A stretch of 38,898 nucleotides of DNA, taken from Draconibacterium orientale (GTDB lineage Bacteria; Bacteroidota; Bacteroidia; Bacteroidales; DYQJ01). A program made the translations under genes and the position numbers. The stretch covers positions 5,621 to 44,518 of the forward strand of contig DYQJ01000001.1 in assembly GCA_020719345.1 (NCBI GenBank). The letters run 5' to 3'. The notes beneath the pieces are model-generated. The model did not search any database and was not told where the DNA came from. It worked only from the letters and a program-made list of their open reading frames with translations. Shown here in pieces: positions 5,501 through 32,343 of this stretch; position 1 is the first letter of the stretch; the number at the start of each line of letters is the position of its first letter.

Positions 5501-7492
5501 TTATAATCGTCTTTCCTGTCTTACATTATCAATAGTATCAACAAAATTAATATTGTCTAAAGATAAATCATAAAATAATTTAGCTACAATTTCTTTGTGT
5601 CGGTTGTCTATAAACTGCTCATTTATAGTTGTTTGTAACAGTTCTCGCGTAAGCGGAAAATTAGATTTGTTATATTCTCTTTTTTTAATTTCAAAATCGG
5701 AGTTGCTTGCCGCCGCATTAAAAGGTTGAGAAAGTAAGGTCATATTTCCAAGACGATAGGTATAAAAATCTCTACATTTCTGACTAAATTGCGTAATCCA
5801 ATTACTCTGCTCTGCCGGATAACGTGGAATAATATGCTCTAAGGTGACTTTATTCAAATCAATATTATATTTTCCCATGTCTTTGGCGTTTTCTGTTAGC
5901 CGAAAATACTTAATTATCAATAAAGTAGCAATTTCATTATTTTGAAGTTCTCCATTTATAAGATGACGAAGTTCTTTTTTCTCTTCGTCTGCGATTTTAA
6001 GAAATGATATTGCCGAGTTAATATCCATCTTATTTAGCGCACCGATAGCGGCATTAATATTTTTTGCGGAAAATTTGGAGCCCGGCTTCAATAAAATATA
6101 TACAAAATATTGTTCAAAATATTGAATAAGAATTCTAAAATTTATAAGATGCTCAAAATAAAAGTGTTCTGCGTATAATTTATTCATTGCATTGCTTAGA
6201 TATTTTTTTTCTTCATCTCTGTCAATCGGCGGTCTTTGTAAATATCTGATTTTCAGGTCTTCTATTTTATTATCTATTTCTTTGAACATAATAAACTCAT
6301 CTGTACTAATTTTAGATTTATTAATATATCTAAAAAGTGCGAGCAAGAAGTTATAAGTGTGTTTTTCGTTTCTACACAATAACAAAAAATTTATTCGTTG
6401 TTCTTGATAAGGAATGCGATTGTTAAGAATCATTTGAAAATTGTACAAATCCGAACTGACATCTTCATAAAATAGTTCTATGGCTTTTTTGCCGACGATA
6501 TCCGAGTATTTATCATTAAAAATAGTTTCTATTTCGGTAAACGCCGAGTATTTTTGTTGCTTAGCATTGATAGTTTCTACCCATCTGCTGATAAATTCAT
6601 CGGAAATTCCGCTAAGCTCTAAGTAGTTCCATTTAGCAACCGGGTCATCATTTTTTATTTCGTCAAATTTTCGTATGACAAAATTACGAAACAAATCTTT
6701 ATTAGATAATGGCAGTCCGCGGTTATTCAAAATCTCAAAAATAACATAAGCATCATGCAAATTAAAAGTTTTGATTCTGATGATAGAGACTCTCTCCGTT
6801 AAAAAGCCGATAAATCTGTCCAATTTATTAGCCAATTCTACGGTGAAACCTTTTCCCGAGTCATAAAAATAAGTTTCAAACTGTTGAACAAAATATTTCC
6901 TATTCTTGTAATAGCGTTGCGAGATAATATTATCTTCTTCATATTTACTGCTATTTATTTTATCATTGCATTCCAAAACATCTTGTAGTACGGCATCAAA
7001 ATTAACGTTTACGGTATTGCTTTCTATTTTAACTTTTTTCTCTTTAGGTATAACTCCTCCGAAACGTTGGATATTGAATATTTTATTGTCCACATGATTG
7101 ATTATAGGAATAATATATGTATGGTCAAAATTTGTTTTGTCACTATTATTAGCAAACCTCATGGTATCAGAAGTTTTTTTGAGGAAGCATTTTATTGAGG
7201 CAAAAAGAATGACGATAGAAATAAGTCGTTGTTGTCCGTCTATAACTTCAAATTCGCGGTTTTTGACTTCTCGCATCACCATTGAACCAAAAAAATAAGG
7301 GTTCTCGTTCTCCGAATTATTAATAAAAAATTCGTATAAGTCGTCCCACATCATATTTATTTGGTTGTTGCGTTCGCTTTTGCCTTCGCAGTCCCATTCA
7401 TATCGGCGTTGATATCCAGGAATAATAAATTTTACGTTATCACCGAACAAATCAGTGATAACAATATGTTCTGGCGTAAATAAGTTATTCAT
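5501..7492 (-). CDS. DUF262/DUF1524 (GmrSD-like, ParB-like NTPase + HNH) protein
   Basis: 'FIIPGYQRRYEW', 'FFGSMVM...FEVIDGQQRLISIVILF', C-terminal 'TLEHIIPRYP...YRLGNMTLLSQPFNAAASNSDFEIKKREYNKS'. Confidence 0.92.
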   Translation of the reverse strand: MNNLFTPEHIVITDLFGDNVKFIIPGYQRRYEWDCEGKSERNNQINMMWDDLYEFFINNSENENPYFFGSMVMREVKNREFEVIDGQQRLISIVILFASIKCFLKKTSDTMRFANNSDKTNFDHTYIIPIINHVDNKIFNIQRFGGVIPKEKKVKIESNTVNVNFDAVLQDVLECNDKINSSKYEEDNIISQRYYKNRKYFVQQFETYFYDSGKGFTVELANKLDRFIGFLTERVSIIRIKTFNLHDAYVIFEILNNRGLPLSNKDLFRNFVIRKFDEIKNDDPVAKWNYLELSGISDEFISRWVETINAKQQKYSAFTEIETIFNDKYSDIVGKKAIELFYEDVSSDLYNFQMILNNRIPYQEQRINFLLLCRNEKHTYNFLLALFRYINKSKISTDEFIMFKEIDNKIEDLKIRYLQRPPIDRDEEKKYLSNAMNKLYAEHFYFEHLINFRILIQYFEQYFVYILLKPGSKFSAKNINAAIGALNKMDINSAISFLKIADEEKKELRHLINGELQNNEIATLLIIKYFRLTENAKDMGKYNIDLNKVTLEHIIPRYPAEQSNWITQFSQKCRDFYTYRLGNMTLLSQPFNAAASNSDFEIKKREYNKSNFPLTRELLQTTINEQFIDNRHKEIVAKLFYDLSLDNINFVDTIDNVRQERRL

Positions 7493-12755: not shown

Positions 12756-13532
12756 TCAATCATGTACCACTCTAAAACCGATGACGATGCTGTTAGTTCG
12801 CGGATTTTCGGCGCGGCGAATCTCGGCAGATATACTCTCGGATTTGCTGTACCAATTTGCACCACGATGCACTTTCATGAGTCCTCTCTCAGCTCCCTGC
12901 GGATTCTTCTTCGGCGACTTTTGATAGTAATCTTTTGAGTACCAGTCCAAGCACCACTCCGACATGTTTCCATAAATATCATAAACTCCCAAAACATTGG
13001 GTTGTTTACTGCCAACTCTATGCGGATGCGCTTCCGAATTATCTCTATAAATCACATAGTTATCTATTTCTTTGAACTCATTTTTTTTATAAATCCCCTC
13101 TTTTGCTACATATTCCCACTCGGCTTCCGTAGGCAAACGTCCACCTTTCCATTTGCAATACGCCGATGCACCGTACCAATTTACATGGGTGACAGGATAA
13201 TTTTCATACCCGACCTCAACTTTATAAATACTATCTTTATAGATGCGGCAACGAAGGTCGCGCCATGTATCCGAAAGCGAAATCCAATAACTGTCATGCT
13301 CTATTTGATTATCATACAAATTTAGAAACGCGGCAAATTCATTATTTGTGACTTCATATCGTGAAATATAAAAACTTTTTAGCTTTACTAAATGTTTATC
13401 AGCATCTTCTGATGATTTGTCTCTGCCCATAAAAAAAGTTCCGCCCTCAATATAAACATAATTTGTGTCTTGTGAACTTGCCAAAATAACAGCGAAAAAA
13501 AATAAATAAAATATTATAATTAATTTTTTCAT
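12756..13532 (-). CDS. SUMF1/formylglycine-generating-enzyme-like (FGE-sulfatase domain) secreted protein
   Basis: Signal peptide; 'YIEGGTFFMGRD...YISRYEVTNNEFAAFLN...HVNWYGASAYCKWKGGRLPTEAEWEYVAKEG...VYDIYGNMSEWCLDWY...IGFRVVHD'. Confidence 0.92.
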   Translation of the reverse strand: MKKLIIIFYLFFFAVILASSQDTNYVYIEGGTFFMGRDKSSEDADKHLVKLKSFYISRYEVTNNEFAAFLNLYDNQIEHDSYWISLSDTWRDLRCRIYKDSIYKVEVGYENYPVTHVNWYGASAYCKWKGGRLPTEAEWEYVAKEGIYKKNEFKEIDNYVIYRDNSEAHPHRVGSKQPNVLGVYDIYGNMSEWCLDWYSKDYYQKSPKKNPQGAERGLMKVHRGANWYSKSESISAEIRRAENPRTNSIVIGFRVVHD

Positions 13533-24146: not shown

Positions 24147-27100
24147 TTATCTATATAATTTTATTATTTCGGTAATATTATTTCTAATATTTATTTTTTC
24201 TATGGTTTGATATTCTCCTTTGTAGCAATAAATATTTTCACTACTGTTATTAAATGAAACATCTAACGCATAATTTGTAGAGTTATAATCAAAATATGAA
24301 GTTTTTTTACCTTGATTATCTATAAAAAAAAGTTTAAAACAATTTTTAAAATATCTATCTTTATAAATATCCGTTTTAAAAACTATTTTATCATTGATAG
24401 TTACACCTTTAAATTCAATAAAATCTTTTCCTTGTAGATAATAAATATTGTTTATTATATTTTTGTTGGTATCAATTTCTACTGCATAATATTCGGAGCT
24501 TGTAGAATACGCTATACGATAGTTCTCATACTCATCAAAATCTGCCATTATTACATATTCTCTAACTTCCTTATTGGTTGTGGTATAAATACAATTACCT
24601 TTCAAAAACATTTCATTTCCACAAGTCCACAAATTATTTATTTGTTTTGTAGAAATTATTTTTTTCTCTAAGTTATATTTTTGTAATACAATTGGTGAAC
24701 ATTGAAAATCATAAGTTAATGCTATTATTTCGTTATTTTCGTTAATATCAATATTTACAAAAATTTTTGTTGGGTCAGAAAATTCTAAAAACAAAGAATA
24801 GTCGTGGAGATTATAAATTTTGTGCGAATTATTATCAAATTCTCGGTAATTGAATGTGTGAGCTGCATAATTATTTTGGTAAGAGACAATTAGATATTTT
24901 TTATTTGCCGAGATTTTCAAGTTGTTTATATTTTTATTCATTACATTTATTGCAGAAATTAAAATTCCGGTTTTTAGCTCCCATACATTTATAATTCCCT
25001 TAGAATCAGAAGTATAAACAAATTTTTCATCAGGCGAAATGCAAATATTATAAGATGCTTCGTTCAGGACAATAATTGATTGTAAACTTCCATCTGTTAA
25101 ATCAAATATTTTCAAAGAATCTTTATTATTGTAAAGAATTGCATATTTCTCGTTATTACTAATCAACAAATTACAGTCATGAGAATTTGTAAAAGGTAAA
25201 AATCTTTTTTCTGTAGTCCCATTTATTGCTTTCTTTTTCTGAAGTATATCAAAAATTTCTTTGTTGTTATAATAAATAGTTAAATCTAAATTAGAATTTC
25301 CGAAGTTATCATTTTGATTTACAAGAGCTTTCTTTTTAATTAATAGTTGTGCTATATCATTGCGGTTGTGCATAATAGCATACATTAGTGGTGTTCGTCC
25401 ATTATAATCTGATATATTTATATCACATTTGTTATGTATTAAAAAAATTACAGTTTCTAACTTGTTTTTTTCTATGGCTTTATGTAAAGGTGTTTTTCCC
25501 TCATAATTTTTTTCGTTTATATCAAGGTCATTATTTTCAAAATGTTCGGTAAAAGCAGTATAATTCTCATATTCAATCAATTGAAATATTTTATTATCGG
25601 GTGAATTAATAAAATTAAGTACATTTTTGTCGCTATTTTTTTGTGCTAATTCTTTAACAGTATAATTAGTAGTATCGGTTTCCTCATATCCTCTTACATA
25701 ATCGTATATTAAATAATTTCCGTTAAAAAATTGTGGACATTTATAATATAAATATCTTATATTTTGTAAGTTAGCAAAAGCAATAATACTACCGAAATAA
25801 TTTTGTATGCTCATATTATTTTCCAACATTTTATCAAAGATGATTTTGAAATTATCAAAAGTCAAATTATTAGCAAGTATGTAGCGTCCGTAGATATAAT
25901 TATTTATAACATTTGTTTTTATTTCATTTGTATCCGTTATTTGTGTTATTTCTATTATTTCGTTTTTTTTAATAAATTCATGAATTACATTTGCATCTAA
26001 AAATAATTTAATTGTTTCAGTATCATTGTTTTCAATAGCATTAAAAAAAACTTTTGAACCAACCAACGTATTTAAAGTGTGTTTGTTTTTATTTGCGTAC
26101 TCAAAAAATTCTTCTCTTGTAAAAAAATTATAATATAAGTCCAAATAATTTCTATTTTCCAAAAAATCGGTTATTTCCAAATTATTTTTCACATAATCTT
26201 TTTTCTTAAGTTCTTCAAATTCTTCTTCCGTTTTCAGAAAATTATTTAATATCAAGTATTTAGCGATTGTAATATTCTTGTTAAAAATAGCTAATTCCAA
26301 TGCGTTATAATTATCACTTGATTTTAAGTCTGTTTTAATACCTTTGCTTAATAGATATTTAGTTTGTTCAAAATTATTATCCCGAGCTGCAAAAAGTAGC
26401 CAGTTAAAATCCCACGCTTTTTCATTTATATCGGTCATATTTCGTAGAAACATGTTTTTATACATCGTACTTTCAGTATTACTTTGTGCAAACTTAATAA
26501 TATTATAATCTTTATCAGGTATATTGCTTTCTAAATCAGAATTATAATTTAATAAATATGCTACTATTGGTAAATTGTTGAGCATCAAGGACAATTCAGT
26601 AGCATTATATTTTTGTAAGGATTCGCTATAAGACTTTTTAATTTCCATAACAGTCTTATCATCTATTTTATAATCTTCTATTAGATATTTAATTATTTGC
26701 AAATTTTCGTAAACAATTGCAATCCCCAAAATAGAAGTAATATATAGTTTATCAATATTATCTGACCCCCAACCCAAAGAAATAATATCTATACCTAATG
26801 CCATTTTTATGTTGTACATAATATTATCGTTTTTAGTAAAATCAGGCGAAAATTTACATTTATCATTAGCATTTTTGCTAAGTAAATATTTTACAATATC
26901 TAAATTATTTTCTTTTGTGAAAAAAGCGACTGGTGTCATACCATTAAATTCAAGATTTATATTTGCTCCAGCATCTACAAGTAACTGAATAATAGGCAGA
27001 GAGTCAGTTAATGTAATTATAGGTAGCGAAATAATTGTATCAATATAATTTACATCTACTCCTTTGGAAATGTAGAATTTAACTTTATCATAATCGTTTG

Positions 27101-27197
27101 TTGGTACTGTTTGTATAAATTCTTCTTGTAAATAATGTTTTTGTGCCAAACAAATATTTGATACGAGCAAAAGAAAAAATAGAATTTTTGTTTTCAT
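24147..27197 (-). CDS. Secreted ankyrin-repeat protein with C-terminal WD40-like propeller
   Basis: Signal peptide 'MKTKILFFLLLVSNICLAQ'; 'NYEGKTPLHKAIEKNKLETVIFLIHNKCDINISDYNGRTPLMYAIMHNRNDIAQLLIKKKALVNQND'; 'ICISPDEKFVYTSDSKGIINVWELKTG'. Confidence 0.88.
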   Translation of the reverse strand: MKTKILFFLLLVSNICLAQKHYLQEEFIQTVPTNDYDKVKFYISKGVDVNYIDTIISLPIITLTDSLPIIQLLVDAGANINLEFNGMTPVAFFTKENNLDIVKYLLSKNANDKCKFSPDFTKNDNIMYNIKMALGIDIISLGWGSDNIDKLYITSILGIAIVYENLQIIKYLIEDYKIDDKTVMEIKKSYSESLQKYNATELSLMLNNLPIVAYLLNYNSDLESNIPDKDYNIIKFAQSNTESTMYKNMFLRNMTDINEKAWDFNWLLFAARDNNFEQTKYLLSKGIKTDLKSSDNYNALELAIFNKNITIAKYLILNNFLKTEEEFEELKKKDYVKNNLEITDFLENRNYLDLYYNFFTREEFFEYANKNKHTLNTLVGSKVFFNAIENNDTETIKLFLDANVIHEFIKKNEIIEITQITDTNEIKTNVINNYIYGRYILANNLTFDNFKIIFDKMLENNMSIQNYFGSIIAFANLQNIRYLYYKCPQFFNGNYLIYDYVRGYEETDTTNYTVKELAQKNSDKNVLNFINSPDNKIFQLIEYENYTAFTEHFENNDLDINEKNYEGKTPLHKAIEKNKLETVIFLIHNKCDINISDYNGRTPLMYAIMHNRNDIAQLLIKKKALVNQNDNFGNSNLDLTIYYNNKEIFDILQKKKAINGTTEKRFLPFTNSHDCNLLISNNEKYAILYNNKDSLKIFDLTDGSLQSIIVLNEASYNICISPDEKFVYTSDSKGIINVWELKTGILISAINVMNKNINNLKISANKKYLIVSYQNNYAAHTFNYREFDNNSHKIYNLHDYSLFLEFSDPTKIFVNIDINENNEIIALTYDFQCSPIVLQKYNLEKKIISTKQINNLWTCGNEMFLKGNCIYTTTNKEVREYVIMADFDEYENYRIAYSTSSEYYAVEIDTNKNIINNIYYLQGKDFIEFKGVTINDKIVFKTDIYKDRYFKNCFKLFFIDNQGKKTSYFDYNSTNYALDVSFNNSSENIYCYKGEYQTIEKINIRNNITEIIKLYR

Positions 27198-27273: not shown

Positions 27274-27840
27274 CTAATAAAAATTACATATTATATCATT
27301 TTCTTGTTCCATTAAAAATAAGTCATCGTTTATATTACCGTAATTTTTTATTCCTTCTATTTTATAAGTGCGTGCCGAGAAGAAGTTAAAAAAGAAGAGG
27401 TCATCTATGGTGTTTATATTAGCGAGATTGCTTTTTATTTTGATGTCGGCTAATATTTTTCGCAAATAAGGGAAATAAAAGCTTCCCAAATCAATGGTGT
27501 CCGGACTGTTTTTAGTTGTTATTAGTGGAATGAAGCTTATTAATCTTTTTTCGGCGATGAAACGATAGGTGTCAAAAAACCAAAGTTCCTTAGTCTTGAT
27601 TCCCACCATCTTAATAGTGTCTATTGCTGGTAGTTTTATATTGTCTATAGAGTCACAAAAGTCTTCGGTATAACAGACTATCTTATTGTTTTTTAATTCA
27701 TTATATATTATTTCTAAAATATTTTGATTAAAAATAAGTGGGTTTTCGGAGGCATCTATTTTTCTCCATATTATTTTTGATGCAAAGACCATACTTTCGG
27801 TAGGTTCAAAATATGAGATGTAATTATTTGAATTATAAGA
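27274..27840 (-). CDS. GldN/PorN-like protein; domain appears to begin upstream of the ATG at 27792, in frame with the preceding ORF
   Basis: 'KIIWRKIDASENPLIF', 'FIPLITTKNSPDTIDLGSFYFPYLRKILADIKI', 'TIDDLFFFNFFSARTYKIEGIKNYGNI' resemble the GldN pattern; in-frame codons before the ATG encode SYNSNNYISYFEPTES. Confidence 0.6.
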   Translation of the reverse strand, partial: SYNSNNYISYFEPTESMVFASKIIWRKIDASENPLIFNQNILEIIYNELKNNKIVCYTEDFCDSIDNIKLPAIDTIKMVGIKTKELWFFDTYRFIAEKRLISFIPLITTKNSPDTIDLGSFYFPYLRKILADIKIKSNLANINTIDDLFFFNFFSARTYKIEGIKNYGNINDDLFLMEQENDIICNFY

Positions 27841-28965
27841 TCATACATATTTATTATTTGAGATATATTTAGTAGTTTTTACTTCAGTGAACTTCGGAAA
27901 AATTGTTTGATAAATGTAACTGTTGATATAAAATCTTTGATTTTTTAGATTTCCTAAGCTGTCGCAAATGCTCCAAATTCCAACTTTCATATTATTGGTG
28001 AAATAACCGGTAGTTTTTATTTTTCCGTTCGGGTATTTTGAAATATAATATCCATCAAATAAATTATTCCGTAGTTGATATTCAATAAAAGTATTATCTG
28101 CTAAATAAGTGTTAAAACTCTTTCTTGTTGTTGTTTTATAAGTAGTTAAGTTCCACATTTTTATCAGACGATTTTCAGTGGAGTTTTTATCAGCGAGAAT
28201 ACTGTCTGTTAGATAAACTTTTATGCAGCGAAAACCTGTGTGCGAATAACCTATATAAGAATAATAGCTGAGGGCAAAGAAATCAATAAATTTTGGCAAT
28301 TTGAACAAAAAAGAATTACCTATAATAACCTTTCTTTTTAAAACCGAAGGGTCATCTTCAGATGCAAAATACGAATAATCAAAAGTTGAATTTGGCGAGT
28401 AAAAGAAATAGCTTTCGTCTTTAGTATTTATTAACCAGTCGGAATAAAATTTATTAAAGTCGTTTTCTATACCACTTTTTTCTAAAAAATGTTGTGCAAA
28501 CAACCATTCACTGCAATACGGCAGACGATATATAAACTCTATTTCTCCGGATTTGTTATCTTGCAAAGTCTTCCATTTACAAAAGTTCAGCGCATTTTCC
28601 CAAGAGATAGCAACAATCGGCTGGTCTTGTAAGTCTTTATCTTTAAGATACTTATTTACATTATGGACTATTACTACCGAAGTATCCGGTAATTGTTGTT
28701 TATAAAAATGTTTATCTTCGCTTGCTTTGATGTAAGATAAATACTGATTGTATAACTTTAAAGTAATCAATTTACTTATCTCAAAAGTGTTTTTAGTGTG
28801 CGAAGTATCCTTTGTTAGCCCTAATATTTGATAGGTATTTAGAGTTTGAATCGGGATAAGATAATTATCCAATTGTTGAGAACGTACCATTGAAGATATC
28901 AACAACATTATAACAATAAGTAAAATTGTTATCTTTTTTTTAATACAATTAATGCTTTTTAACAT
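27841..28965 (-). CDS. Degenerate SUMF1 (GldK/GldJ-like) domain protein with MORN-like repeat, signal peptide without lipobox
   Basis: 'VAISWENALNFCKWKTLQ...YRLPYCSEWLFAQ...GYSHTGFRCIKVY'; 'YYISKYPNGKIKTTGYFTNNMKVGIWSICDSLGNLKNQRFY'. Confidence 0.75.
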   Translation of the reverse strand: MLKSINCIKKKITILLIVIMLLISSMVRSQQLDNYLIPIQTLNTYQILGLTKDTSHTKNTFEISKLITLKLYNQYLSYIKASEDKHFYKQQLPDTSVVIVHNVNKYLKDKDLQDQPIVAISWENALNFCKWKTLQDNKSGEIEFIYRLPYCSEWLFAQHFLEKSGIENDFNKFYSDWLINTKDESYFFYSPNSTFDYSYFASEDDPSVLKRKVIIGNSFLFKLPKFIDFFALSYYSYIGYSHTGFRCIKVYLTDSILADKNSTENRLIKMWNLTTYKTTTRKSFNTYLADNTFIEYQLRNNLFDGYYISKYPNGKIKTTGYFTNNMKVGIWSICDSLGNLKNQRFYINSYIYQTIFPKFTEVKTTKYISNNKYV

Positions 28966-28980
28966 ATTAATAAGTTTTAT

Positions 28981-31900
28981 TTATATCCATTCTTTAGTTT
29001 GGTTATCTATTAATATCATTTGTTTGATAGTGAAATTTAAAACTTTTATAATATTAGTAATATTATCTATTTCGTTGTGCGACAGTTCTCTGTTCTTGCG
29101 GTCTTTAATGTATTTATCAAGTACTTGATAACCACCGACATAAAAATTATAAATGTTTTCTTCTATGGTTTCAAAATATTGTGTTTTATTGATATACAAT
29201 TTATTATCAACAAAATACGGATTTATAACTATTTTATCTCCTTGTCCTTTAAAAATTCCGATTTCGTTATATTCCGGCTCGTGTGGAATTTCTTTAAGTA
29301 AGTGTTTTTTAACGAGTTGCTCGCCCATGTTAGCCAAAGTTTGAAATTTAGTCAAACTTTCGGTAAATGGTATACGCGGGAAATCCATCTTCAAAAATTC
29401 TGCATATTTCTCTCTAAACGTAGGACTGTGCAAAATAGCATAAATATAATAAAATATTTCTTCAGGTGTCGGTTCATAATCAGAGTTCTGCGAACTATTT
29501 GCAGAGATTAGATAATGTTTTTTCTGCTCTATCTGGACTTTTAATTCTTCGGCAGTTTGTTTTTGTAGATTAATTATTGAAATATCAGTGTTTGTTTTTT
29601 CAAATGTTAAAATAATTTTTTCAATTTGTTTTAGTTGTTTTTCTTGTGCTTTAATATTTTTTTCTATTTCTGTGAGATGTTTTTTGTCTATAGGTTTGCT
29701 CTTGTATTTTGTTTTGATATAATTTCGGAATTGTTCAGTGAAATTATCTTTTTTGTCGTCTTCCTTAAATAAATAATTTGTAGCATGAGAAGTTCCATTT
29801 CCATTGTAACGGTAAAGCGGACAGATAGATGCCGTTCCAGGTATTTGTAAAAAATTTATATCCAAAATATTCTCGGATGCAAAAACATAAGAATATTCAT
29901 TGTCTTTTTTATAAGCAAATCTTGTAAATATCAATCCCAGATTTTGTTTTTCAAAATGTTTCATTACTTTGGTTACCGTTCTCCAAACTAATTTTTCTTC
30001 ATAAAAAATAAATCGTTTGTCAAAAGGACGATACAATATAGGTTTTATAAAAGTTCTTAAATCTTGATGATTTTGTAAATTGTCCCAACCTTTCAATATG
30101 TCCCAGTCTTTTTTCTCTACTACATTAAATTTTTGGTGTAATGTTTTAGAGTAACGTTCAGTGTTTTTGAAATTATTAAATCTTTTCAATAATATATCTT
30201 CTTGATAATCAATGCAAAAATTGTCGTGTGCTGTTGTTATGCCTACTCCGTTTATATCAAAAATATCTTTTATACTTGTGAATTTTTCATAAACTGCTCT
30301 TAGGTTTTGATTTTGCGGCACAAACAAATAAAACGGCGAATTAGGTTTTATCTCATTAAAAATAAGAGTATTGAAATTATTTTCCATGCAAATATTGAAT
30401 TTTGTCTGACGGTCTCCCCAAAAATCAGTATGAAAAACGGCTTTAGGTATTCCTTTCTTTTTAATCATCAGCGAAATACAGACTCCTTGTTGAATATCAA
30501 ATACATTTTCGTCTTTTTCACCTTCTAAGGTCGTCTCTTTTTTTAATGAATTTCCATGTAAATCAATAAAATACATGCTGTCAAAAGTATTAATCAAACT
30601 TTGTCTCATGCCGCGAAAAGTAGGGTTGTCTAAAAACGAATGATTAGTAATTATCGCAACTATTCCCTGCTCTACTTTGTCCATTTTATCTTGTGCAAAA
30701 CGGATAAATTTCACGTAGTCGTCTTGTAACCATTTAGGGTTTCTTTCGCCAAGCGGTTTATTATCAACGAGATTGTATTTTTTTATCTCATTTTTTATCC
30801 ACAGTCCATTGTTTTTAGAATTACCAGAGTATGGCGGATTTCCTATGATAACCAAAATAGGTTTATCTTTAACTTCTTGTGCTGCTTTTGTCTCTTTGGA
30901 GAGCTGCGGCATAAAAGGGACTTTTATTTGCTTGTCCGTTGGCTCTAAAGTGTTGGTTAAATAAACTTGTAAACGGTCTTTATCCAAAAATTCATACCCT
31001 TCTTCTTTGAGGAATTGCGAAAGTTTAAGATGCGCAACAGTGTAAGGTGCAATAAGATATTCAAACCCAAATAGATTTTTCAAGATGTGGTCTTGTATAA
31101 TCATTCGGCGTTTTTCGGCTAAATCATTCGGCGTTTTATCTAAAATAATTTTAAAAACTTCCAACAAAAAAGTTCCTGTTCCTGTGGCAAAATCAAGGAC
31201 AGTTACATTGTCGCGCTCTGCAAGACCGTTTGAAAGATTGAAAGTATTTATCAAAATTTCATCTACGCAGCGAACAATAAAATTAACTATTTGCGGAGGA
31301 GTATAATAAACGCCCTTAGATTTTCGTAAATTATAATCGTAAACAGACAAAAAAGTCTCATAAAAATAAATATACGGGTCGTTTTCAACCCTGCCAGCGT
31401 TTCCAACGCTGGCAGGGTTTTGGAAATCTTTTTTTAAATCAGCCCATTGAATGTTGTTTATTATAGATAAAATTTCGTCTATTATCCATTTGGTTTCTTT
31501 GTATTCCGGTTTCTCTAATTCTTCGAGAAAACTGATTAACTCTTTGATTAATTGAAAATTAGCGGGTATATATTTTTTGGCATTCTCACGTGAAATAGTT
31601 TTTGTATCAGCATTTAAACCTGCGAGAAACAAGCCATAGGTGAGCATTTGCGCAAAAGTGTCAGAAAATTCGGAGATAGTTAGCTCTGCGAAGACATTAT
31701 CTTTGAAAGCGTTGTAGAGGTCGTATAATCTCTCTTGTTCGCTTTGAATATTTTGTCGTGTAAGTTCCTCATTTATAAATGCTTTCAAATTTTTACAACG
31801 ATTCGCAAGCGCGGTAGCCAAATCTTTGGAAGACGATATTTTTTCAGGGACTTGCGAAAAGAAGTTTAATAAAAGTCGTTCTACTTTTTCTATATTCAGA

Positions 31901-32343
31901 TTTTGCGAGGTCTCTGGTTTTGTAATTGTTTCACTATTGGTAATTATTTCTATACTGCACAAAGTTTCGCGCAGAATTGTTTGGTCTTTTATCCAGATGA
32001 ATTCTAAATAATTAGTTATCAGGAGATTTTGAGATAATTCTCGGTACTTTTTTATCTGTTCGGAATTTAATATGTTGTCCAGATTTTCTGTAATTTTTTT
32101 ATTTTCAACATATCCAATAATTGAAAATTCAGAATAAATTTTAAAGTCCGGCGCTCCGTAATTATCTTTACGTTTAGGTTCTTGTAAAACCGTAATTTTT
32201 TTAGTTTGATTTATTAGTGCTGCCAGTTTTAAAAGATTTTCAAGCGCCGAACGTTTAGAATGTTCAGTCAATTCATCTATCGGAACTTCTTGTAACTCCT
32301 TAATATATTGTTTAAAATCTATCATAAACAATTCATTAACCAT
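28981..32343 (-). CDS. Single-polypeptide N6-adenine methylase restriction-modification protein (type IIG / type ISP-like)
   Basis: N-terminal 'GAPDFKIYSEFSIIGYVENKK' PD-(D/E)xK-like; 'VYYTPPQIVNFIVRCVDEIL', 'VLDFATGTGTFLLEVF', 'IIGNPPYSGNSKNNG' MTase motifs; large C-terminal specificity region. Confidence 0.9.
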   Translation of the reverse strand: MVNELFMIDFKQYIKELQEVPIDELTEHSKRSALENLLKLAALINQTKKITVLQEPKRKDNYGAPDFKIYSEFSIIGYVENKKITENLDNILNSEQIKKYRELSQNLLITNYLEFIWIKDQTILRETLCSIEIITNSETITKPETSQNLNIEKVERLLLNFFSQVPEKISSSKDLATALANRCKNLKAFINEELTRQNIQSEQERLYDLYNAFKDNVFAELTISEFSDTFAQMLTYGLFLAGLNADTKTISRENAKKYIPANFQLIKELISFLEELEKPEYKETKWIIDEILSIINNIQWADLKKDFQNPASVGNAGRVENDPYIYFYETFLSVYDYNLRKSKGVYYTPPQIVNFIVRCVDEILINTFNLSNGLAERDNVTVLDFATGTGTFLLEVFKIILDKTPNDLAEKRRMIIQDHILKNLFGFEYLIAPYTVAHLKLSQFLKEEGYEFLDKDRLQVYLTNTLEPTDKQIKVPFMPQLSKETKAAQEVKDKPILVIIGNPPYSGNSKNNGLWIKNEIKKYNLVDNKPLGERNPKWLQDDYVKFIRFAQDKMDKVEQGIVAIITNHSFLDNPTFRGMRQSLINTFDSMYFIDLHGNSLKKETTLEGEKDENVFDIQQGVCISLMIKKKGIPKAVFHTDFWGDRQTKFNICMENNFNTLIFNEIKPNSPFYLFVPQNQNLRAVYEKFTSIKDIFDINGVGITTAHDNFCIDYQEDILLKRFNNFKNTERYSKTLHQKFNVVEKKDWDILKGWDNLQNHQDLRTFIKPILYRPFDKRFIFYEEKLVWRTVTKVMKHFEKQNLGLIFTRFAYKKDNEYSYVFASENILDINFLQIPGTASICPLYRYNGNGTSHATNYLFKEDDKKDNFTEQFRNYIKTKYKSKPIDKKHLTEIEKNIKAQEKQLKQIEKIILTFEKTNTDISIINLQKQTAEELKVQIEQKKHYLISANSSQNSDYEPTPEEIFYYIYAILHSPTFREKYAEFLKMDFPRIPFTESLTKFQTLANMGEQLVKKHLLKEIPHEPEYNEIGIFKGQGDKIVINPYFVDNKLYINKTQYFETIEENIYNFYVGGYQVLDKYIKDRKNRELSHNEIDNITNIIKVLNFTIKQMILIDNQTKEWI
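31387..31419. repeat. 33-bp perfect hairpin within the methylase CDS (AACCCTGCCAGCGTT-TCC-AACGCTGGCAGGGTT)
   Basis: 15-nt arms fully complementary, 3-nt loop; read in frame as part of ..FQNPASVGNAGRVEND.. Confidence 0.95.

Follow-up and report, generated by a model that had tools for sequence, protein, structure and literature searches.

Background

The closest described relatives of the gene reported here are PorK/GldK and PorN/GldN, the ring proteins of the type 9 secretion system (T9SS). The InsH insertion of PorK (R81-P230) bridges the subunits of the ring, a lipid anchors PorK, and PorN docks onto the neighbouring PorK through its N-terminal helix (PMC12421860). The T9SS hub or gliding track has been described as a filament of GldJ, GldK and GldN (PMC12635249).

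The window, that is, the whole stretch of 38,898 nucleotides of Draconibacterium orientale DNA that was analysed, includes a locus with parts related to both proteins and a stop codon between them. The K-L-M-N gene order is absent from this locus. Its neighbours are a gene for a Type ISP restriction-modification enzyme, directly upstream (28981-32343, minus strand), and, immediately downstream (24147-27197, minus strand), a gene whose 1016-amino-acid product bears a signal peptide and combines ankyrin repeats with a WD40-like propeller. Elsewhere, the window encodes a GmrSD-type restriction enzyme (5501-7492, minus strand) and another SUMF1/FGE protein of 258 amino acids (12756-13532, minus strand; PF03781, E-value 1.5e-49), which adjoins the rpsB/tsf genes.

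The name K2 is used here for a short GldK-like paralogue, and N2 for a paralogue composed of a signal peptide, a MORN region and a GldN domain. In the literature that was searched, no description of the K2-N2 pair was found, and the family appears to be undescribed.

A GldK-like and GldN-like frame with one in-frame stop

The frame lies on the minus strand and comprises 563 codons, of which positions 28965-27841 correspond to the GldK-like ORF and positions 27840-27274 to the GldN-like part. A single TGA (27843-27841) cuts it and is the sole in-frame stop between the two ORFs. A preliminary description of the window had reported two ORFs in the same frame, separated by one TGA and with no start codon until 27792, and this arrangement was confirmed on the minus strand. 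The ORF starts at 28965 and 27792 are 1173 nucleotides apart, and the 16 codons past the TGA (TCT TAT AAT ... GAA AGT) include no ATG, GTG or TTG before the ATG at 27792. At the local base composition, the chance of 188 open codons past the TGA is about 3.5e-7. Codon usage past the TGA is no less gene-like than ahead of it: the log-odds in this frame are 0.178 past the TGA, compared with 0.103 for K2 and 0.113 for the MORN region, and are negative in the other five frames.

The K2 part (28141..28965, minus strand), as delimited by the K2 family model, consists of a signal peptide (about residues 1-29) and a short GldK-like FGE/SUMF1 domain (residues 9-275). The window protein matches positions 2-277 of the 279 in a K2 model built without it, at 249 bits. 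The first ORF also matches PF03781 (E-value 1.8e-8, 34.8 bits, cut-off 23.3) and the GldK family TIGR03525 (7.6e-10). No lipobox cysteine is found at the end of the signal peptide. Thus, the preliminary description of this ORF as a SUMF1 protein with a signal peptide, no lipobox cysteine and a MORN-like tail is borne out, with MORN_2 (PF07661) matching weakly in the window (0.017) and above its cut-off in the relative from genome G012. AlphaFold2 places the strands of this MORN-like beta-sheet at residues 285-349 (27919..28113, minus strand; pLDDT 72-85), upstream of the TGA, and predicts K2 with low confidence (pLDDT 41), poorly also in the joined model.

Past the TGA, 188 codons (27277..27840, minus strand) encode a GldN/PorN-like domain, which is recognised by PF19841, the N2 model and fold search. 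The preliminary description had staked its proposal on the second ORF matching GldN, and such a match was found (PF19841, E-value 1.3e-13, 51.6 bits, cut-off 23); TIGR03523 also matches (1.2e-5). In a fold search with the AlphaFold2 model of the joined protein, whose input alignment included canonical GldN rows, the only matches at an E-value of 0.001 or better were PorN chains (9ots, 9mzu, 7pvh and 9myj). The predicted GldN domain spans residues 376-528 and is separated from the MORN sheet by a low-confidence linker. A Pfam scan of the joined 563-amino-acid protein missed PF19841, although the scan of the 188-amino-acid piece found it. Filtering during the scan probably explains this, and the N2 model made with the window left out does match the joined protein.

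The N2 model, which was made from 19 relatives with the window left out, matches the joined frame as a single domain that crosses the TGA (residues 273-541, 213.8 bits). The separate pieces score 73.1 bits before the TGA and 128.1 bits after it, and none of 200 shuffled sequences matched. A search with the second ORF revealed a continuous frame of 330 codons in G012, the genome of an uncultured Bacteroidetes MAG. This frame encodes MORN and GldN behind a signal peptide, and its alignment with the window extends over the site of the TGA. MORN and GldN form one ORF in every relative. As judged from sequence, the K2 and N2 halves in the window are one interrupted gene and not two, because one domain match to the window-free family model spans the TGA. 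The earlier suggestion that the GldN domain begins before the first start codon holds clearly for the wider MORN-GldN homology, which crosses the TGA; the Pfam domain begins only 2 residues ahead of the ATG at 27792.

Relatives of the K2-N2 gene

Searches across the order and class, together with two loci from a contig search, revealed 19 other full-length N2 genes. These occur in 7 other genomes of the 393 in the order sample and in 10 more of the 395 in the class sample, in addition to the two from the contig search. The joined protein alone found nothing as a query in the contig search, whereas an alignment query did. In a sample of 396 genomes from the phylum, no N2 besides that of the window's own genome was found at E-values of 1e-46 or below, a cut-off too strict for the weakest known member to be detected. 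Most sampled genomes are without the K2-N2 pair.

Nine genomes have K2 and N2 side by side as separate genes. K2 directly precedes N2 and has its own stop, and N2 has its own signal peptide. The two are separated by a 1-nucleotide gap in G106 and ES-bin-35, and overlap by about 4 nucleotides in other genomes, for example G412, G469 and G645. Genome G735 contains an unbroken K2-MORN-GldN fusion of 574 amino acids from its ATG, with no stop. The remaining N2 genes have no adjoining K2. In G128, a lipobox-bearing SUMF1 gene (L180:949-1911) lies about 520 nucleotides upstream of N2, and is possibly a less derived relative of K2.

The window locus belongs with these pairs, since models built without it score 249 bits for K2 and 213.8 bits for N2. 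Domain order in the gene pairs and in the G735 fusion is K2-MORN-GldN, as in the window, and the models match over nearly their full length. The junction in the window (28100..28150, minus strand) lacks two features of the two-gene relatives, namely the stop codon of K2 and the signal peptide of N2, and K2 and N2 are joined in frame because both are missing. The match to K2 extends to residue 275, and that to N2 starts at residue 273, at position 13 of the 326 in the model. In an alignment with 10 other K2 proteins, the conserved W-G-L-K-like tail of the relatives ('LKYWGLK-stop') is still recognisable in the window as 'IKMWNLTTYK'. The fusions of the window and G735 are grouped in the K2 tree (support 95/88) but not in the N2 tree, and the joint tree and the AU test (p-AU 0.25) do not discriminate between one origin of the fusion and two.

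The nine K2-N2 relatives are thus two genes and the G735 relative is an unbroken fusion, whereas a stop occurs only in the window. These intact relatives support the proposal in the preliminary description that a K-N fusion has been interrupted by one stop, and the homologue with a continuous ORF that it called for is the one in G735. The preliminary description had also regarded homologues consistently encoded as two genes, with start codons after the equivalent stop, as evidence against its proposal. Two-gene homologues exist, but their boundary is that between K2 and N2 and never the site of the stop in the window.

Comparison with canonical GldK and GldN

The genome that contains the window (G000) also encodes a canonical T9SS. 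A search for gldKLMN, as proposed earlier, located a complete and intact porP-gldK-L-M-N-N operon on another contig, C70, whose GldK scores 564 bits against TIGR03525. At L063:7103-8873 in this operon, two tandem and closely similar gldN copies accompany porP, gldK, gldL and gldM. Canonical GldN is likewise present in the well-complete genomes that have N2.

The window gene falls well below the thresholds that define the canonical families. Its K2 part scores 38.7 bits against TIGR03525, for which the equivalog level is 350 bits, and its GldN part scores 24.8 bits against TIGR03523, for which the level is 85.9 bits. N2 and canonical GldN form separate clades with 100/100 support, and K2 is separated from GldK and other SUMF1 proteins with the same support. 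A lipobox is found in none of 11 K2 proteins versus 48 of 63 GldK proteins. The gap at the InsH site is 37-38 amino acids in the nine K2 proteins measured (38 in the window) versus 133-191 in the 31 GldK proteins measured. Therefore, the earlier idea that the actual T9SS ring proteins are fused here is not supported: the protein belongs to a distinct clade, lacks InsH and a lipid anchor, and is encoded apart from the canonical operon. The window gene is non-canonical, and K2-N2 is a distinct paralogous clade that appears to be an offshoot of the ring proteins of the T9SS.

A third GldN-derived class, of about 190-200 amino acids and covering only profile positions ~30-154, occurs in many genomes that have N2. 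Examples are found as single loci (G012:C436:2398-2775, G151:C218:6880-7248, G245:C22:56969-57352 and G457:C20:6162-6563) and as tandem pairs in G353:C17 and G106:C329.

Nature of the stop

The TGA is codon 375 (27841..27843, minus strand) and lies in the linker between MORN and GldN. In an alignment that is approximate in this linker, the same column holds leucine in 10 of the 19 other N2 genes and a stop in none, and no internal stop was found anywhere in these 19 genes. Conserved residues are retained in the window at 26 of 35 positions past the TGA, 19 of 25 in the MORN region and 69 of 96 in K2, so that no extra decay is seen in the part past the TGA. The stop is also unshared, and it is therefore either young or an error. 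Some relaxation of the window N2, before or after the stop arose, is possible because its branch in the N2 tree is long (2.14 changes per column) and a conserved C-terminal tryptophan is not kept. Most likely, the TGA either arose in this lineage by a recent nonsense change or reflects an incorrect base in the metagenome assembly, and these are the favoured ones among the alternatives listed in the preliminary description.

A real and recent nonsense mutation, by which the N2 half has been lost, has a good chance of being correct, if somewhat short of even. The gene would then be an incipient pseudogene or would survive as K2-MORN. Of 20 N2 genes, only that of the window carries a stop, the canonical GldKLMNN proteins are present, so that the window gene may be dispensable, and the pair is missing from most sampled genomes. 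The lack of excess decay past the stop is compatible with such a mutation, but the intact downstream frame shows merely that the event would be young.

Alternately, the stop might exist only in the assembly or consensus, in which case the organism itself carries an unbroken gene for a 563-amino-acid K2-MORN-GldN protein. This is a serious possibility, although a rather doubtful one. The genome is known from a draft assembly of 442 contigs, one substitution suffices to create the stop, the gene carries no further sign of decay, and G735 has an uninterrupted fusion with the same composition. However, no such breaks are seen in the window's long genes.

Programmed or leaky readthrough of the UGA, which would yield K2-MORN as the major and K2-MORN-GldN as the minor product, is improbable. 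This explanation is kept at low probability because the stop falls in a low-confidence linker, almost exactly between the predicted MORN sheet (285-349) and the predicted GldN domain (376-528), where a random stop would be placed only ~4-5% of the time. Moreover, the GldN half looks maintained. On the other hand, no relative conserves the stop, and the hallmarks of a recoded UGA or selenoprotein (SelA, tRNA-Sec and a conserved stop) are all lacking. No SelA was found in the genome, and the tRNA-Sec candidates proved to be tRNA-Ser, so neither selenocysteine nor suppressor decoding of the TGA is indicated. A search for an RNA element past the stop revealed folding no better than that of shuffled sequences (z 0.87). 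The readthrough or recoding put forward in the preliminary description is thus disfavoured. TGA serves as an ordinary terminator in the window, where it ends 3 of 25 genes. A start codon overlapping the stop was also considered, but an ATG in that position opens a frame that ends three codons later.

Two separate genes, one GldK-like with a MORN tail and one GldN-like with a start at the ATG at 27792 or at a non-standard codon, are very unlikely, since the proximity of the Pfam domain start to this ATG is outweighed by a family domain that spans the TGA, by the single MORN-GldN ORF of all relatives, and by the lack of a signal peptide in the product of the 172-codon mechanical ORF (27274..27792, minus strand), though GldN-family proteins are periplasmic.

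Possible function and comparison with known systems

The locus probably represents one K2-N2 fusion gene cut by a TGA, through a recent nonsense mutation or an assembly error, whose intact form would be a 1:1 unit that builds no ring. The intact protein would be exported to the periplasm by the Sec pathway via the K2 signal peptide, and would constitute a fixed, soluble unit of one K2 and one N2. If the stop is real, the translated product is a 374-amino-acid K2-MORN, and only this exported protein would be made, with the GldN half lost. K2-N2 would retain the pairing of K with N, but a PorKN-type ring is not expected because K2 has neither the bridging InsH insertion nor a lipid anchor. The natural K2-N2 fusions fit 1:1 pairing without a ring.

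K2-N2 may have an accessory role at the T9SS hub or gliding track, where it might bind the canonical GldKN proteins encoded elsewhere in the genome or modulate their ring or track. The diverged use of ring proteins that the preliminary description proposed is a fair guess. Tentatively, K2-N2 could be a hitherto undescribed, ring-less and unanchored derivative of the GldKN hub of the T9SS, with its MORN sheet in place of the docking helix of PorN and with a covalent link between K2 and N2 in some lineages. As a soluble 1:1 complex, it could cap the canonical ring or track, serve as an adaptor for it or put a brake on it, or perhaps act in a different periplasmic process.

The stop taken alone is a routine lesion, and the interest of the locus resides in the family behind it. 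Relatives of GldK and GldN have evolved as a stand-alone pair without gldL, gldM, the ring-closing insertion or the lipid anchor. That fusions of the two occur in nature argues well for K and N being able to function as a 1:1 unit. The pair provides a simple handle on which features of PorK are needed for building a ring and which serve only to hold PorN.

K2 shares with PorK/GldK (TIGR03525; PDB 9mzu and 9ots) an FGE/SUMF1-derived domain and the motif D-D-P-[SA]-V-L-K-R-K-V-I-x-G, and TIGR03525 is the top NCBIfam match of the K2 proteins scanned. However, K2 proteins are 270-302 amino acids long, compared with a median of about 452 for PorK/GldK, lack the ~150-amino-acid InsH and the lipobox, and form a separate clade. 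N2 resembles PorN/GldN (TIGR03523, PF19841; PDB 7pvh and 9myj) in its GldN domain, as detected by Pfam and by fold search, but has a MORN sheet where PorN has the helix that binds PorK, and also forms a separate clade. Duplicated genes of the GldN family are known from the GldO-type paralogues of F. johnsoniae. GldO-type and tandem gldN copies are located in or beside gldKLMN, whereas N2 is remote from it, bears a MORN region and is paired with K2.
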